Positions 43,842 through 58,242 of a stretch of 64,000 bases of DNA are shown here, in pieces. A program made the position numbers and the translations under genes. The notes below the pieces were generated by a model. That model was not told the DNA's origin and did no database searches. It was given only the letters and a program-made list of their open reading frames with translations. The stretch spans positions 1-64,000 of the forward strand of contig JAHEBH010000001.1 in NCBI GenBank assembly GCA_024642335.1. The letters run 5' to 3'. The stretch comes from Erythrobacter sp. Its GTDB lineage: Bacteria; Pseudomonadota; Alphaproteobacteria; Sphingomonadales; Sphingomonadaceae. The number at the start of each line of letters is the position of its first letter. Positions within the stretch are counted from its first letter, which is position 1.

Positions 43842-45327
43842 AAATTGCAGGCGGGGAGAGGGGGCGGATGTCGATCCGCTCGTCCTGATCAGCGAAACCG
43901 CACACGGCCCGCGCGTGGAGGCGGCCAATGATGCCGGACTGCAGGCAGGTGCCGCGCCCGGCATGATGCTGGCCGATGCGCGCACGCTGTGTCCGCAATT
44001 GAAGGTCGCGCCCAGCGATCCTGCGGGCGATCTCGCATTCCTCGAAAGGCTGGCGGTCTGGGCGCAGCGCTGGGGGCCGTGGTCGGCAATGGATGCACCC
44101 GATGGCCTGCTGGTTGATGTCACGGCGGTGGCCCACCTTTTTGGCGGTGAGGAACGCCTGCTGGAGGATGTTCATGCCCGTTTTGCGGCGCAGGGCCTGA
44201 CTGCGCGTGCCGCAATTGCACCCACGGCAGGTGCTGCATGGGCCTTGGCGCATTACGGGCCGAAGGGGGCGATCCTTGCGCCCGATGACGATGGCATGGC
44301 GCGGCTTTCCGGCCTGCCGGTGGCGTCACTGCGCCTCGACGGTGACGTCTTGCTGGTGCTGCGTCGCCTTGGCCTCAAGCGTCTGGGCGACCTGGCGGAA
44401 CTGGGGCGTGACGCCGTGCAGCGCCGTTTCCGCAACCGCCGATCGCCTTCTGCCAACCCGCTGGTGCGGATGGACCAGTTGCTGGGCCGCGTGCCGGAGC
44501 CGCTTCTGCCCGTCGTGGCGATAGAAGCCCCGCTGGTGCAGCGCCGCCTGATGGAGCCGATCCGCCATCGCGCGCTGCTGGACCAGGTGCTCGCTGACCT
44601 GGCCGATGACATGGTGCGCGAACTGGAAGCGCGGGGGGAAGGGGCGAGGCGGCTCGAACTGGGCCTCTGGCGCGTCGATGGCGAGGTTGTGCTGCGCAAG
44701 CTGGAAATGGCGGCTGCGACGCGCGAGGCAAAGCATATCTGCCGCCTCTTTGCCGCGCGCCTCGACGATGTGGACGCCGGTTTCGGGATCGAGATGGTGC
44801 GCCTGCGTGCCGCATGGTCCGAACCGCTCGCGCTGGCGCAGAAGGATCTGGAGGCGGCGGCGGAAGAACATGGCACTTCGCTGGCCGCCTGTATCGATCG
44901 CCTGACCGTTCGCCTGGGGGAAAGGGCCGTGCGCAAGCCGGTGCTGCGCGGTAGCCATCTGCCTGAACGCGCACAAGGCTGGCAGGCTCCGCTGGAGCCG
45001 GAACAGGCTTCACAGGAAATGCTCGATTTTCATTCCAGGCCACTGAAAATGCTCGACAGGCCGGAACAGATTGCCGTGCTTTATGCCAGCCCTGACGGCT
45101 ATCCGCGGCGCTTTCGCTGGCGCGGCGGCGTGCATGAGGTGGTGCGGGTGGAAGGCCCGGAACGTATCGCCCCCGAATGGTGGCGGGAGAAGGGTTCGGC
45201 ACGCCTGCGCGACTATTACCGGATCGAGGATGGCGAGGGGCGGCGCTACTGGATTTACCGCGCAGGCCTCGCCAGTGACGGGCGCGGCGGCATGCCCGAC
45301 TGGTTCCTGCAGGGGCTGTTCGCCTGA
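43732..45327 (+). CDS. imuB: ImuB, Y-family DNA polymerase-like protein
   Basis: A protein of up to 531 residues. The N-terminal part (RRIMAIWLALLALDRWRH) begins the Y-family palm; LLVDVTAVAHLFGGEERLLEDVHARF and ARAAIAPTAGAAWALAHYGP follow. The acidic triad of active Y-family polymerases is not visible at the expected places, as usual for ImuB, which is thought to be an adaptor bringing DnaE2 to the beta clamp. The C-terminal 130 residues (RRFRWRGGVHEVVRVEGPERIAPEWW) are the ImuB tail. The start is uncertain: ATG 43732 or ATG 43792, both inside imuA. It overlaps dnaE2 by one base. Confidence 0.88.
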   Translation: MTDRPSSPSVRQPIAPPRRIMAIWLALLALDRWRHSENCRRGEGADVDPLVLISETAHGPRVEAANDAGLQAGAAPGMMLADARTLCPQLKVAPSDPAGDLAFLERLAVWAQRWGPWSAMDAPDGLLVDVTAVAHLFGGEERLLEDVHARFAAQGLTARAAIAPTAGAAWALAHYGPKGAILAPDDDGMARLSGLPVASLRLDGDVLLVLRRLGLKRLGDLAELGRDAVQRRFRNRRSPSANPLVRMDQLLGRVPEPLLPVVAIEAPLVQRRLMEPIRHRALLDQVLADLADDMVRELEARGEGARRLELGLWRVDGEVVLRKLEMAAATREAKHICRLFAARLDDVDAGFGIEMVRLRAAWSEPLALAQKDLEAAAEEHGTSLAACIDRLTVRLGERAVRKPVLRGSHLPERAQGWQAPLEPEQASQEMLDFHSRPLKMLDRPEQIAVLYASPDGYPRRFRWRGGVHEVVRVEGPERIAPEWWREKGSARLRDYYRIEDGEGRRYWIYRAGLASDGRGGMPDWFLQGLFA

Positions 45328-48300
45328 TGCCCGACAAGCCGCTCACCCCGCCAAGGCCGCATGTCGATAGCGATCCCTCGCTGATCGCACCGCCCGAACG
45401 CGCGCCTTTCGTCGAACTGGGGGTGATGAGCTGTTTCAGCTTCCTGCGCGGGGCTTCGGATGCGGTGGCGCTGGTCACGCAGGCGCGGACGCTGGGTTAC
45501 GATGCGCTGGGCATCGCCGATGCCAATAGCATGGCAGGCGTGGTGCGGCTGCATATGGAGGCAAAGGCCCTCAGGATCAGGCCGCTGATCGGCTGCCGTA
45601 TCGAGGTGGTGGAGGGACTCTCCTTCCTGGCCTATCCGCGTGATCGCGCTGCTTACGGGCGGCTGACGCGGCTGATTTCGGCAGGCCGGATGGCGACGCT
45701 GGATGGCGAATGGCAGGAGAAGGGCGTGTGCGAGATCTCGCTGCCCATGCTGGCGGATCATGCGGAGAATGTGCAGCTTATCCTGCTCCCTCCGCGCGAC
45801 CTGACCAAGCGTTTCACCGTTCCCGCCTGGGCCAGCAACGTGGTGACGCTGGATGGCGATGCCTTCGAGGAGAAAATTGCAGGTCCCTTCGTAGATATCT
45901 TGCCGCATCTCGCCGCTGGCCTGCCCACCATGCGCCATATCGCTGCCAGTTACCTCTATCGCGGGGATGATATCGCCCGGATAGAGCGCCTGGACGCGCT
46001 GGCACGGGCCAATGGGTTGTCGATCCTTGCCACCAACGATGTGCATTACCACGCGCCCGAACGGCGGCCCCTGCAAGACGTGATGACGGCTATCCGGCAC
46101 AAGACCACGGTTGCCGCTGCCGGGCACCTGCTCCACGCCAATGCCGAGAGGCACCTGAAAAGCCCCGAGGAGATGCTCAGGCTGTTCGCACAATGGCCGC
46201 ACGCCATCACGGCGGCGCGTGCGGTGGCGGATGGCTGCAATTTCAGCCTGGATGAGCTCAGATACGAATATCCGGAGGAGGTCTACCCTGACGGGATGGG
46301 ACCGCAAGATTACCTCATCCAGCAGACATGGGAAGGCGCAAAAAGGTTTTATCCCAATGGCTTGCCTGAATCAGTTAAGGAAACACTCGAACGCGAACTT
46401 GTGCTGATCGGCAGGCTGGAACTGGCGCGCTACTTCCTCACCATCAAGGATATCGTCGATTTCGCACGCGGGCAGCACCCGCCAATCCTGTGCCAGGGGC
46501 GCGGGTCTGCAGCCAATTCCGCCGTCTGCTATGTGCTCGGCATCACCAGCGTCGATCCGGCCAAGCACGCGCTGCTGTTCGACCGCTTCATTTCCGAGGA
46601 TCGCAACGAGCCGCCCGATATCGATGTCGATTTCGAGCACGAGCGGCGCGAGGAGGTGATCCAGTATCTCTATGCCAGATACGGACGCCACCGTGCAGGC
46701 CTGTGCGCCACGGTGATCCATTACCGCCCGCGCATGGCCATCCGCGAGGTGGGCAAGGTGATGGGCCTGTCAGAGGATGTGACCAGTGCGCTCGCCCGCA
46801 CCGTGTGGGGTAGTTACGGGCGCGAAGTGGCGGAGAAGCACGCAGCTGAGATCGGCATGGACCTGTCCGACCCGCATCTGCGCCGCGTGCTCAAACTGAC
46901 CGAGCAGATGATCGGCATGCCGCGCCACCTGTCCCAGCATGTCGGCGGCTTCATCCTCACCGAAGGCCCGCTGATCGAGACCGTACCTATCGGCAATGGT
47001 GCCATGCCCGATCGCAGCTTCATCGAATGGGACAAGGACGATATCGACGCGCTGGGCATCCTCAAGGTCGATGTGCTGGCGTTGGGCATGCTCACCTGCA
47101 TCCGCAAATGTCTCGACCTGCTGGAGGAGCATCACGGCCGGAGCCTGACGCTGGCCACGGTCCCGCGCGAGGACCCCGAAACCTATGCCATGTTGCGCAA
47201 GGGGGATTCGCTCGGCGTGTTCCAGGTGGAAAGCCGCGCGCAGATGAACATGCTGCCCCGCCTGCGCCCGCGCGAATTCTATGACCTGGTGATCCAGGTG
47301 GCGATCGTGCGGCCCGGTCCGATCCAGGGCGACATGGTCCACCCCTATCTCAAGCGCCGCCGGGGGGAAGAGATGGTGGTGATACCCGCGCCGGGGCCGC
47401 AGCACGGCCCACCGGACGAGTTGACCAGCATCCTCGCCCGCACGCTGGGTGTGCCGATCTTCCAGGAACAGGCGATGAAGATCGCGCTCGACGCCGCCAA
47501 ATTCTCTGGCGCGGAGGCCAACCGGCTGCGGCGGGCGATGGCGACCTTCCGTTCGCGCGGGAACCTCGAGGAACTGGAGGGCATGATGGTCGGCCGCATG
47601 GTCGAACGCGGCTACGATCCCGATTTTGCCGAGCGTTGTTTCAACCAGATCAAGGGGTTTGGCGAATATGGTTTTCCGGAAAGCCATGCGGCGAGCTTTG
47701 CGCATCTTGTCTATGTCTCAAGCTGGCTAAAATGCCATTTCCCCGCCGCCTTCGCCTGTGCCCTGCTCAATTCGCAGCCGATGGGCTTCTACGCCCCCGC
47801 ACAGATCGTGCGCGATGCGCGCGAGCATGGCGTGGAGGTGCTGCCAGCGGATGTGAACCATTCGGAGTGGGATTGCATGCTGGAGGTTATGGAGAATGGG
47901 CCAGACTCGCCCTTCCTCTTTAGGGGAGGGGCAGCGAGACTTGCTGAGCCGCAGGCGAAGTTAGTCGCAGCGGGGTGGGGCGATGCCGATAGCCCCCACC
48001 CCCCGACCCCCTCCCCTGAAGGGGAGGGAGAGAAACGCATCGCCCTGCGCCTGGGCCTGCGCCAGGTGGATGGCCTGCCCGAACATGTCGCCGCGCAACT
48101 CGTGGCCGCGCGTGAAGAGGGCGGTGCCTATGGCGATGTCGGCGCATTGCGCGAGAGGGCACGTCTGTCGCCTGCGCATATCGAGAGGCTCGCCAGCGCC
48201 GATTGCTTCGCATCTATGGGATTGTCGCGCAGGCAGGCGCTGTGGGATGCGCGCAGCCTGGTTTCAGGGCCAGACCTGCCGCTTTTCGCCCACGCCCATG

Positions 48301-48857
48301 CACGCGACGAGGGGGCAGAAAGGGGCAGGGCTGTCCTGCCGCTGATGCCCTTGTCGGAAGAGGTGGTGGCCGATTACCAGACCACGCGCCTGTCGCTGAA
48401 GGCGCATCCGCTGGCCTTCCTGCGCGCCTCGCTGGCGGAACGCGGCTTCGTGCGCGCCTGTGACCTCAGGGATCGCAAGACGCGCAGCATGGTGCAGGTG
48501 GCGGGCGTGGTGCTGATCCGCCAGCGGCCGGGCAGCGCCAAGGGCGTCTGCTTCATCACGCTGGAGGATGAGACAGGGGTGGCCAATCTGGTAATCTGGC
48601 CCGATCTGATGGAAAGGCAGCGCCGCGTGGTGATGGGGGCAAGGCTGATGGAAGTGCGCGGGCGTGTGGAATATGACGATGAGGTGATCCATGTGATTGG
48701 CCATCATCTGCGCGATGCGACGGCGGAACTGCACCGCCTGTCGGATGACCTGCTACAATCCCCCACGGCCCGCGCGGATCACGTCAGCAACCCTTCCGGC
48801 ATGCGCTGCCACCCGCGCAATGCCCGCGTCATCCCCAGGTCCCGCGATTTTCACTAG
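45327..48857 (+). CDS. dnaE2: Error-prone DNA polymerase DnaE2
   Basis: A protein of 1176 residues, a C-family polymerase for damage-induced mutagenesis. It starts with a PHP domain (FVELGVMSCFSFLRGASDAVALV), then the catalytic palm with PPDIDVDFEHERREEV near residue 430 and VDVLALGMLTCIRKCLDLL, fingers with EYGFPESHAASFAHLVYVSSWLKCHFPAAFACALLNSQPMGFY, and an OB fold (MVQVAGVVLIRQRPGSAKGVCFITLEDETG). Residues about 858-903 are not polymerase sequence but a translated palindromic repeat (see the repeat entry), which makes the protein longer than usual. It ends nine bases before convergent phoB. Confidence 0.92.
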   Translation: MPDKPLTPPRPHVDSDPSLIAPPERAPFVELGVMSCFSFLRGASDAVALVTQARTLGYDALGIADANSMAGVVRLHMEAKALRIRPLIGCRIEVVEGLSFLAYPRDRAAYGRLTRLISAGRMATLDGEWQEKGVCEISLPMLADHAENVQLILLPPRDLTKRFTVPAWASNVVTLDGDAFEEKIAGPFVDILPHLAAGLPTMRHIAASYLYRGDDIARIERLDALARANGLSILATNDVHYHAPERRPLQDVMTAIRHKTTVAAAGHLLHANAERHLKSPEEMLRLFAQWPHAITAARAVADGCNFSLDELRYEYPEEVYPDGMGPQDYLIQQTWEGAKRFYPNGLPESVKETLERELVLIGRLELARYFLTIKDIVDFARGQHPPILCQGRGSAANSAVCYVLGITSVDPAKHALLFDRFISEDRNEPPDIDVDFEHERREEVIQYLYARYGRHRAGLCATVIHYRPRMAIREVGKVMGLSEDVTSALARTVWGSYGREVAEKHAAEIGMDLSDPHLRRVLKLTEQMIGMPRHLSQHVGGFILTEGPLIETVPIGNGAMPDRSFIEWDKDDIDALGILKVDVLALGMLTCIRKCLDLLEEHHGRSLTLATVPREDPETYAMLRKGDSLGVFQVESRAQMNMLPRLRPREFYDLVIQVAIVRPGPIQGDMVHPYLKRRRGEEMVVIPAPGPQHGPPDELTSILARTLGVPIFQEQAMKIALDAAKFSGAEANRLRRAMATFRSRGNLEELEGMMVGRMVERGYDPDFAERCFNQIKGFGEYGFPESHAASFAHLVYVSSWLKCHFPAAFACALLNSQPMGFYAPAQIVRDAREHGVEVLPADVNHSEWDCMLEVMENGPDSPFLFRGGAARLAEPQAKLVAAGWGDADSPHPPTPSPEGEGEKRIALRLGLRQVDGLPEHVAAQLVAAREEGGAYGDVGALRERARLSPAHIERLASADCFASMGLSRRQALWDARSLVSGPDLPLFAHAHARDEGAERGRAVLPLMPLSEEVVADYQTTRLSLKAHPLAFLRASLAERGFVRACDLRDRKTRSMVQVAGVVLIRQRPGSAKGVCFITLEDETGVANLVIWPDLMERQRRVVMGARLMEVRGRVEYDDEVIHVIGHHLRDATAELHRLSDDLLQSPTARADHVSNPSGMRCHPRNARVIPRSRDFH
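47899..48036. repeat. Palindromic REP-like repeat inserted in frame in dnaE2
   Basis: About 138 bases interrupt dnaE2 between the motifs HSEWDCMLEV and RLGLRQVDGLPEH, which are normally close together. It holds nested hairpins: CCTC/GAGG around 47905-47930, GGGGTGGGG (47972-47980) pairing with CCCCACCCC (47994-48002), and CTCCCC (48011-48016) pairing with GGGGAG (48021-48026). This G/C-box hairpin layout is that of intergenic palindromic elements of sphingomonads. The reading frame stays open and encodes Pro/Gly/Ala-rich sequence such as DSPHPPTPSPEGEGEK. No other copy was noticed in the window. Confidence 0.75.
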
Positions 48858-48866
48858 GCTTTGTGA

Positions 48867-49556
48867 TCAACCCGGATCGAGCGAATAGCCAGCCGAACGC
48901 ACCGTGCGGATCGGATCGCGGGAATTCTCGACCGTGATCACCTTGCGCAGGCGGCGAATATGGACGTCGACTGTCCGCTCCTCGATCTCGCTGCCCGTTC
49001 CCCACACCGCATCGAGCAACTGCCCGCGCGTGAACACCCTGCGCGGGTGTTCCATGAAGAACTTGATCAGGCGGTATTCGGTGGGGCCGATCTGCAATTG
49101 GCGCCCGCGCCGCTCCACCCGGTGGGCGACCGGATCGAGCTTGAGATCGCCCACTTCGATCGTTTCCCCGGCCAAAGCGGGACGCACGCGGCGAAGCACG
49201 GCAGCCACGCGCGCCAGAAGCTCGCGCGGAGAGAAGGGCTTGGTCAGATAATCGTCGGCACCGGTTTCGAGGCCGCGCACACGGTCATCCTCGGCCTCGC
49301 GCGCAGTCAGCATGATGATCGGCACATGGGCGGTCGCCTTGTCGCGGCGCAAACGGCGGCAGACCTCGATGCCGCTGATGCCTTCGATCATCCAGTCGAG
49401 GATCACCAGGTCCGGCACATCCTCGGCTGCAAGGATCATCGCTTCTTCGCCATCTCCGCAAACGCGGACATCATAGCCCTCGTTCTCGAAACGGTATTCG
49501 AGCAGTTCGGCAAGCGCCGTATCGTCTTCTACCAGCAGGAGCTTGGGAGCGGACAT
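48867..49556 (-). CDS. phoB: Phosphate regulon response regulator PhoB
   Basis: A protein of 229 residues. The receiver domain has Asp54 (VILDWMIEGISG) and the conserved Lys in DYLTKPFSPRELLARV. The OmpR-type winged helix shows IGPTEYRLIKFFMEHPRRVFTRGQLLDAVWG and RTVDVHIRRLRKVI. PhoB, phosphorylated by PhoR at low phosphate, activates genes with Pho boxes, two of which lie upstream in this cluster. It is the last gene of the pst unit, 80 bases after phoU, and converges with dnaE2. Confidence 0.95.
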   Translation of the reverse strand: MSAPKLLLVEDDTALAELLEYRFENEGYDVRVCGDGEEAMILAAEDVPDLVILDWMIEGISGIEVCRRLRRDKATAHVPIIMLTAREAEDDRVRGLETGADDYLTKPFSPRELLARVAAVLRRVRPALAGETIEVGDLKLDPVAHRVERRGRQLQIGPTEYRLIKFFMEHPRRVFTRGQLLDAVWGTGSEIEERTVDVHIRRLRKVITVENSRDPIRTVRSAGYSLDPG

Positions 49557-49636
49557 GGATCAATTCCTAAGGGCGCCAGACCGTCCGGCGTCATCGATTC
49601 GACCCTGTAATATGTCAGCAATGCGACAGAATTGTT

Positions 49637-50305
49637 TCAACGCTCCACATCGGTCGGATATGAACCGAGCGCGGCGAAATGGACCATCTCCGCGACATTG
49701 GTGGCATGATCGCCGATCCGTTCGATATTCCGCGCGACGAAGAGCAATTGCGCAGCACTGCTGATGGTGGCGGGATTTTCCACCATGTAGCTGACAAGAT
49801 TGCGGAAAATGCTGTCATAGAAGGCATCCACCTTCTCGTCCCGCTTGATCACTTCGCGTGCCACAATCGGGTCGCGCGCGGCATAGGCGGTGAGCACGTC
49901 ATGCACCATTTCCGCTGCCACTTCGCCCATCGCGGGAAGCAGGGTAAGTGGTTCGAAACGGCTGCGCCCCTCGATCCTGCCGGTGCGCTTGGCGATATTC
50001 TTGGAATAATCGCCAATCCGTTCCACCACGCCTGCAATCTTGAGCGCAGCGATGATCTCGCGAAGGTCATCGGCCATGGGTGCCCGCAACGCAAGAACAC
50101 GCACGGCCAGTGCGTCTACCTCCGCTTCCAGCGCATCGAGCTTCACATCACGCTCCACCACCTCGCGGGCGAGTTCCTCATCGCCGGTGACGATGGCCTC
50201 GAGCGATTGCTGGATGGCGAGTTCTGCCAGACCGCCCATTTCTGCGATCAGGCCCCGTAAACGGGTGATGTCTTCATCGAATGCTTTGACTGTATGTTCT
50301 GCCAT
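49637..50305 (-). CDS. phoU: Phosphate signalling protein PhoU
   Basis: A protein of 222 residues made of two PhoU three-helix units: ITRLRGLIAEMGGLAELAIQQSLEAIV with EREVVERDVKLDALEAEVDALAVRVLALRAP-type sequence, and EMVHDVLTAYAARDPIVAREVIKRDEKVDAFYDSIF. The repeated metal-binding E/DxxxD motif is seen in each half. The C-terminal FVARNIERIGDHATNVAEMVHF is diagnostic. PhoU conveys the state of the Pst transporter to PhoR and restrains phosphate uptake. Its start overlaps the pstB stop by one base. Confidence 0.95.
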   Translation of the reverse strand: MAEHTVKAFDEDITRLRGLIAEMGGLAELAIQQSLEAIVTGDEELAREVVERDVKLDALEAEVDALAVRVLALRAPMADDLREIIAALKIAGVVERIGDYSKNIAKRTGRIEGRSRFEPLTLLPAMGEVAAEMVHDVLTAYAARDPIVAREVIKRDEKVDAFYDSIFRNLVSYMVENPATISSAAQLLFVARNIERIGDHATNVAEMVHFAALGSYPTDVER

Positions 50306-51114
50306 TAGCCGTACCGCCCGGTGATATAGTCTTGGGTGCGTCGTTGCCTGGGATTAGTGAAGATGTCCGAGGTATGTCCATATTCCACCAGATGTCCGAG
50401 GTGGAAAAACGCCGTGCGCTGGGAAACGCGCGCGGCCTGTTGCATCGAATGGGTGACGATGACGATGGCATAGCGTCCGCGCAATTCGTCTATCAGTTCC
50501 TCGATCTTGGCTGTCGCGATCGGGTCCAGCGCCGAACAGGGTTCGTCCATCAGGATGACTTCGGGATCGACCGCGATCGCGCGTGCAATGCACAGGCGTT
50601 GTTGCTGGCCGCCCGAAAGGGCCGTGCCCGAATCCTCGATCCGGTCCTTCACCTCTTCCCACAGGCCAGCGCGCTGCAGGCTGCGTTCGACAATTGTATC
50701 CAGTTCGCCCTTGGTCTCGGCAAGGCCGTGGATCCGCGGGCCATAGGCGATGTTCTCGTAGATCGACTTGGGGAAGGGGTTGGGCTTCTGGAAGACCATG
50801 CCCACGCGGGCGCGCAGCTGCACCACGTCCATGCCCGAATGGTAGATATCCTCACCGTCCAGCTCGATCGTACCTTCCATCCTTGCAGACGGAATCGTGT
50901 CATTCATGCGGTTGAGGGAGCGCAGAAAAGTGGACTTGCCGCAGCCCGACGGACCGATGAATGCGGTGACATGTTCCGTGTGTATGTCGATGGAAACCTG
51001 ATCAATCGCCTTCTTGTCTCCGTAATAGACAGAAACGTCTGTGGCGCGAATCTTGGGTTCGCCCTTCGGTTCGGCCTCGGCCGGCGTCGTCATGGGAGTC
51101 TGCTCGGTCACCAT
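50305..51114 (-). CDS. pstB: Phosphate ABC transporter ATP-binding protein PstB
   Basis: A protein of 269 residues. Walker [10 protein letters not shown], the ABC signature [16 protein letters not shown], and Walker [14 protein letters not shown] are complete, with the PstB-type [18 protein letters not shown] opening and a switch His in [17 protein letters not shown]. It drives phosphate import through PstC/PstA. The first 20 residues are a polar extension. The start overlaps the pstA stop by seven bases and the stop overlaps phoU by one base. Confidence 0.97.
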
Positions 51115-58052: not shown

Positions 58053-58127
58053 TGGTGACCCCTACGGGAATCGAACCCGTGTTTCAGCCGTGAGAGGGCC
58101 GCGTCCTTACCGCTAGACGAAGGGGCC
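58053..58127 (-). tRNA. tRNA-Glu (anticodon CTC)
   Basis: A 75-base cloverleaf on the minus strand: acceptor GGCCCCT, D arm TCTAGCGGTAAGGA, anticodon loop CTCTCAC giving CTC, T arm ACGGGTTCGATTCCCGT, and encoded CCA. It follows the other tRNA-Glu on the same strand by 40 bases. Confidence 0.96.
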
Positions 58128-58167: not shown

Positions 58168-58242
58168 TGGTGACCCCTACGGGAATCGAACCCGTGTTTC
58201 AGCCGTGAAAGGGCCGCGTCCTAACCGCTAGACGAAGGGGCC
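58168..58242 (-). tRNA. tRNA-Glu (anticodon TTC)
   Basis: A 75-base cloverleaf almost identical to the neighbouring tRNA-Glu except in the D loop and the anticodon (loop CTTTCAC gives TTC). It encodes CCA. It is the first of the tandem pair and has a promoter 19-47 bases upstream. Confidence 0.97.

Follow-up and report, generated by a model that had tools for sequence, protein, structure and literature searches.

The window, by which is meant the whole 64,000-nt stretch of Erythrobacter sp. DNA analyzed here, contains a dnaE2 gene for an error-prone DNA polymerase whose identity is indicated by a full-length match to the curated family profile NF004225 (1379.5 bits; cut-off 939). An ImuB-like ORF that carries IMS and DUF6504 is located upstream of dnaE2, and a candidate ImuA-like ORF has a profile score below the cut-off (28.8 bits; cut-off 150). 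On the opposite strand, phoB, phoU and pstB (NCBIfam; 48867-51114, minus strand) are arranged end to end with dnaE2, and an adjacent pair of tRNA-Glu genes (58053-58127 and 58168-58242, minus strand; 97% identity) possesses the anticodons CTC and TTC. The features in and around dnaE2 are as follows.

45327-48857, plus strand: dnaE2, error-prone DNA polymerase, 1176 amino acids, ORF open across the repeat
45867-45869, plus strand: codon 181 in the PHP-domain loop, putative second repeat site, with in-frame repeats in relatives and none in the window
47892-48038, plus strand: variable linker of 49 amino acids (residues 856-904) at the beta-hairpin tip, flanked by two conserved motifs
47908-48031, plus strand: multi-hairpin palindromic G/C-box repeat element of ~124 bp, ends approximate
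47910-47931, plus strand: left terminal hairpin of the palindromic element
47924-47979, plus strand: conserved core, also present in copies elsewhere in the genome (93% to the two best)
~48007-48028, plus strand: right terminal hairpin of the palindromic element

Comparison with relatives delimits the linker in the window as 147 nt bounded by ...NHSEWDCMLEVM and IALRLGLRQV, most of which consists of the G/C-box palindromic element. The original prediction, that a palindromic repeat is carried in frame within dnaE2, is borne out by the ORF and the NF004225 match, and the block that it delineated (138 nt or 46 residues at 47899-48036) is nearly the same as the linker of 147 nt or 49 residues. 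In addition to the two terminal hairpins and the core, the element includes an inner hairpin, and the end hairpins can pair mutually (arms 47911-47931 and 48008-48028, 86%). Four occurrences of CCCCTNNNGGGGAGGG (≤1 mismatch) were counted in the window compared to 0.19 expected, three of them within the dnaE2 element. RNA of the interval 47895-48040 has a predicted folding energy of -82.9 kcal/mol (z -5.5) that was equaled by none of 200 shuffled sequences, and folding of the element as single-stranded DNA (z -4.0) also was far beyond the shuffles. Just two of the six reading frames of the element are free of stop codons. When read on the minus strand, the right end comprises a hairpin (48007-48028) and then a G-run (47995-48006), which lends it a likeness to the intrastrand triplex motif. 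A search of Rfam with 47600-48300 returned two matches, both well under the gathering scores.

The element is not solitary. Eleven further core-bearing copies (L002-L012) were found in the window's genome (2.66 Mb in 105 contigs), and many copies are present among the matches listed for genomes of the genus. Two additional candidates in the same genome (L013 and L014) match over 16 nt only and were taken as chance. The other copies in this genome mostly finish in CCTCCCGC..GCGGGAGGGG. Alignment of the 50 copies that could be placed in register, the window's included, revealed two kinds of terminal hairpin. By eye the window copy is closer to the rarer kind, which is consistent with the finding of its terminal hairpin word CCCCTNNNGGGGAGG just once elsewhere in the genome. 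A codon test classified as coding-through none of the 11 copies in the window's genome and none of the 40 genus copies, the latter being the best 40 element-only matches listed with that genome excluded. The same test called all 24 dnaE2 linkers of ≥66 nt coding-through, which served as positive control; the rule that was used calls neither of the genus copies L145 and L147 coding-through. Thus, 0/51 other sampled copies of this family lie in coding frames, in agreement with the original designation of the element as intergenic in type, and in-frame copies in several unrelated genes were not found in this sample. Long stop-free ORFs that cross several copies in the window's genome are unsupported as genes by the codon test. 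Judged from sequence, the element belongs to a gene-less family of palindromic repeats whose other sampled copies are intergenic.

The window's genome contains one Y1_Tnp (RAYT-like) gene with an ORF of 240 amino acids (L129; G000:C39:1-4000) that is adjoined by a short tandem repeat, GGGGAACTTCCGGGGACAG. Within the surrounding 4 kb there is no inverted repeat of ≥14 nt within 120 nt, and the contig bears no core-bearing copy of the element. A RAYT gene as neighbor of the element was rejected, as none was seen beside it, and mobilization of the element from a distance is possible.

The linker between the motifs ...WDCMLEVM and IALRLGLRQ was compared across 107 distinct DnaE2 loci, 79 from a GTDB scan and 28 from a scan of the genus that included the window. 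Its length ranges from 0 to 303 nt, and in all 107 cases it is a multiple of three and stop-free; 24 linkers are ≥66 nt. Within the genus, long linkers are present in 10/30 loci. Every linker in the Rhodobacterales and kin (an 18-row clade) is 9-12 nt. Alignment with other DnaE2 proteins revealed no conservation of the inserted residues. Neither condition named beforehand as refuting the original reading, namely conservation of these residues across DnaE2 proteins or absence of further copies of the element, therefore holds. The notion that the insert is a single case fared less well: many relatives have other repeats at the same point, and uniqueness to this strain is rejected by their linkers. 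A 350-nt stretch of dnaE2 is identical between L114, from the genus of the window, and A. odishensis L020, from which the window's genome probably belongs to the genus Aurantiacibacter. A DnaE2 match in another genome (L125; G038:C234:1951-3987) has an internal TGA that reflects either a broken gene or a draft error.

An order-wide sample, which partly overlaps the 107 loci, produced a DnaE2 match in 68/109 genomes, and 70 of the 72 matches were examined (those from G073 and G085 were left out). Among these 70 loci, 54 had a linker measurable by motif, 14 were judged visually from the frame, one (L280) is out of frame, and one (L261) is cut by a contig edge in the linker. Thus, 68 of the 69 readable linkers are in frame; seven of the 54 that were measured by motif encode ≥24 amino acids. 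The exception (L280; G145:C113:6927-8604), in a draft of 130 contigs, is a linker with a repeat-like stretch that includes the peptide HAELVEAR, a common repeat; either this dnaE2 is inactivated or the draft is in error. Insertions that break the frame thus occur, but are rare.

The long linkers hold assorted repeats. G/C-box hairpins, of the window's family or of other kinds, occur in L028, L034, L056, L099 and L101, and the window's family is present in the opposite orientation in L100, L122 and L119. Units of 8 nt such as GCAGAGGC or CGCGGAGA, arranged in inverted runs, are present in the linkers of L035, L041, L043, L045, L052, L064, L104, L106 and L127, six of which (L041, L045, L052, L064, L106 and L127) contain inverted pairs nested one within another. 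The L018 linker holds a long palindrome, that of L090 a TTCGTCCTGAGC palindrome, and that of L102 a short palindrome. An inverted repeat that exceeded those in all 100 shuffles was detected in 17/24 long linkers compared to 0/24 coding controls of equal length from the same genes. Seven of the 24 failed the palindrome test at 0.01, and in L057, L063 and L092 this test found no palindrome at all. Among the matches listed for their own genomes, at least seven of 12 inserts (L018, L034, L041, L056, L064, L090 and L106) are clearly multicopy, those of L028 and L052 are multicopy over a short stretch only, and those of L035, L063 and L102 gained no multicopy support. At least four types of linker insert are thus genomic repeats. 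The L122 insert is that of L100 minus 48 nt, and L117 by reading seems to retain a remnant of the insert that its relatives L104 and L106 carry; inserts thus appear to shrink after gain.

The distribution of inserts was mapped on a tree that was built from 105 DnaE2 proteins by a quick method with the linker left out, with L073, L094, L125 and the duplicates L114 and L121 excluded. Gains and losses are not separated in this analysis. Seven linker states require 24 changes on the tree compared to a mean of 24.5 when states are shuffled, and 85 of the 200 shuffles needed no more changes than the tree itself; as the number of changes is close to the shuffled number, kinship hardly predicts the insert. 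The starred branches alone entail at least 18 changes between no insert and the remaining states. The sister of the window's gene (L102) bears another insert, and a sister with a clean empty site was not found for the window copy; in two near relatives, L109 and L111, the linker is 12 and 3 nt long, respectively.

Inserts of >9 residues arise at just three places in an alignment of 78 DnaE2 proteins (L064, L073, L094 and the genus loci excluded), namely at residue 857, at residue 181 in the PHP domain, and in the C-terminal tail, where the maximum lengths are 77, 36 and 44 amino acids, respectively. Significant palindromes were found in inserts of ≥22 amino acids in 7/8 cases at residue 181 and 8/12 at residue 857, but in 0/23 in the C-terminal tail, which rules out that every variable region of DnaE2 gathers repeats. 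The PHP-domain loop near residue 181 is, on this evidence from alignment, a second repeat-receiving site. In the DnaE2 gene of G037, nested repeats occupy the two internal sites, with a nested inverted array of 225 nt in the PHP-domain loop (L198; G037:C133:2708-2932) and 303 nt of nested repeats in the hairpin linker. The equivalent hairpin of DnaE1 harbors an insert in 0/25 genus genomes (25 of 26 sampled; L219, represented by an antisense ORF, excluded). The sole sizeable insert in DnaE1, of 27-28 amino acids with four more nearby, is near residue 328 in three related genomes (L232, L233 and L235 in G036, G037 and G014, respectively) and is not repeat-like by eye. Beyond DnaE2, the genome of the window has two full-length DnaE1-like matches (G000:C103:478-3522, L215; G000:C52:7708-10752), which reflect either a duplication or contamination of the draft. 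When two sets of 20 copies of other families, chosen among the own-genome insert matches listed, also were tested for coding, 4/91 sampled copies of all families outside the linker were coding-through. One is at site 181 of DnaE2 and the others are in single flavoprotein, acyltransferase E2 and UvrA ORFs, which were named by reading; in unrelated genes, families other than that of the window were thus in frame once each (L182, L204 and L205).

The residues that flank the linker correspond to positions 819 and 834 of E. coli DnaE, which accords with the predicted location between the fingers and helix-hairpin-helix regions and implies that the insert takes the place of a short hairpin turn. An AlphaFold2 model of DnaE2 based on a 44-row alignment was of moderate quality (mean pLDDT 68, pTM 0.48), and its best structural matches are solved DnaE chains, with no solved DnaE2 among the matches. 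Residues 857-901 have pLDDT values <50, mostly ~27-32, between flanking strands at 851-855 and 904-908. This pattern is the one expected for a disordered hairpin tip, in keeping with the suggestion that the insert might be tolerated as a loop. The insert is predicted to be an added disordered loop of ~45 residues that probably is exposed on the protein surface.

The best explanation of these observations, to which we assign a probability of roughly 0.8, is a selective filter that keeps in-frame copies of repeats in two tolerant loops of DnaE2. Repeats would strike many genes and most insertions would be lost, but two turns of a polymerase that reportedly is non-essential (PMC3919608) may accept inserts that preserve the frame. 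By sequence, the palindromic repeat in the window has settled in a beta-hairpin turn, with a length and frame that leave the protein readable. The turn at 857 and the loop near 181 have received several unrelated repeat families many times in the Sphingomonadales, sometimes nested, and tolerated inserts may shrink later through in-frame deletion. As different repeats were gained many times in one loop, the loop marks where the protein tolerates mobile DNA. Neither site-specific targeting nor a new function need be assumed.

The data are compatible with a selective filter and with preferential insertion alike. Preferential targeting, in which local DNA features draw palindromic elements and selection only removes out-of-frame products, would account for the convergence of many families at one place with ~24 state changes, for insertions nested in older repeats as if repeats attract repeats, and for the two loops of one gene that were hit in G037. 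However, insert starts and ends vary in the linker with no common target word seen by reading, unrelated families would have to share one preference, and one out-of-frame case among 69 readable linkers is too few to demonstrate raw targeting, so that we consider this scenario unlikely. It is improbable too that the inserts are retained for an effect on the amount of DnaE2, on its binding of partners or on mutagenesis. Such tuning is favored by the stable mRNA hairpin of the window copy, by the sparing of DnaE1 at the equivalent hairpin in 25 genomes, and by the over-representation of repair genes among those with intragenic REPs (PMC3733652), whereas the variation of inserts in sequence, length and orientation, their turnover between sister species, and their shrinkage have the look of near-neutral filler. 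A dying or split dnaE2 in carriers, or a frame that is open by chance, might be entertained since dnaE2 is dispensable (PMC3919608) and a repeat breaks the frame in one relative. This artefact is very hard to reconcile with 107/107 linkers in frame, conserved motifs on both flanks, the full-length NF004225 match, and only two of six element frames without stops. Finally, a single old insertion may have diverged into the present linkers, as was preferred for some Rickettsia palindromic elements in PMC3767692. Certain inserts are indeed inherited, e.g., those of L100 and L122. Nevertheless, the families are unrelated and each has copies in its own genome among the matches listed, one family occurs in opposite orientations, and linkers of 0-12 nt are found among near relatives, which together make common ancestry exceedingly improbable.

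Filtering of in-frame copies at tolerant loops is retained as the preferred reading. Unrelated families, nesting, both orientations, shortening, and one frame break at one turn mean that tolerance, targeting and selection are separable by experiment. A more speculative proposal, which we regard as doubtful, is that the two loops of DnaE2 form a useful fast-changing region in which repeat-derived loops alter protein level or partner binding and so tune the induced mutation rate. If this were true, gain and loss of disordered repeat loops would shift the induced mutation rate among close relatives. Repeat loops also may explain some of the variation in DnaE2 length: core length reportedly correlates with genomic GC content and varies mainly in the PHP and thumb regions, a placement that fits site 181 but not 857. 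Genetic studies cited in the same source found dnaE2 to be non-essential (PMC3919608).

REPs within DnaE2 genes are known in print. REPs with GTAG or CGTC tags sit within DnaE2 and further repair genes, and the species in which genes contain REPs include E. lithoralis and S. alaskensis. Repair genes are over-represented among the carriers, and a mutator role was speculated for these repeats (PMC3733652). According to the same source, intragenic REPs of one functional category are at differing sites except in recB of two Xanthomonas species, whereas here the same DnaE2 turn has been struck repeatedly. The window element differs further from GTAG/CGTC REPs in that it is longer, multi-hairpin, and without either tag. 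Allowing either strand and ≤6 nt from the ends, a tag is present at the 5′ end in 1/50 copies and in 2/27 copies with the 3′ hairpin, and a RAYT gene flanked by the repeat was not found in the window's genome. The G/C-rich intrastrand triplex motif (TM, earlier PIT) is reportedly always intergenic in E. coli MG1655 (PMC4666352). The window element shares with it a terminal hairpin and then a G-run, a potential third strand, but is part of a larger element and does not match the E. coli arms, as CCCTCNCCC N3-6 GGGNGAGGG has no match in the window. A relaxed triplex pattern that was fitted to the element has a single match in the window, at the element itself.

One turn of DnaE2 as a landing site for repeats of multiple families was not found in the open-licence papers searched. 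Rickettsia provides the best-known cases of mobile repeats carried in frame by bacterial proteins, and in that genus both a hotspot and common ancestry have been considered (PMC3767692). The RPE and WPE families are multicopy palindromic repeats of ~100-150 bp, some of which lie in frame at exposed sites of conserved proteins such as the alpha chain of DNA polymerase III (PMC3767692, PMC10969869, PMC2229807). RPE-4 is found in the DNA polymerase III alpha gene of R. japonica and RPE-6 is found there in R. felis; in PMC3767692, a common origin of RPE-4, RPE-6 and RPE-7 is preferred with hotspots not excluded. The window element shares with RPE and WPE its palindromic nature, its length of ~124 bp, its 11 other copies, and its in-frame position in a conserved polymerase gene, but belongs to another lineage and to a family that, among the copies sampled, was found in a coding frame only in DnaE2. 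The likeness to the Rickettsia repeats is one of description, and in contrast to those elements a single turn here receives unrelated families.
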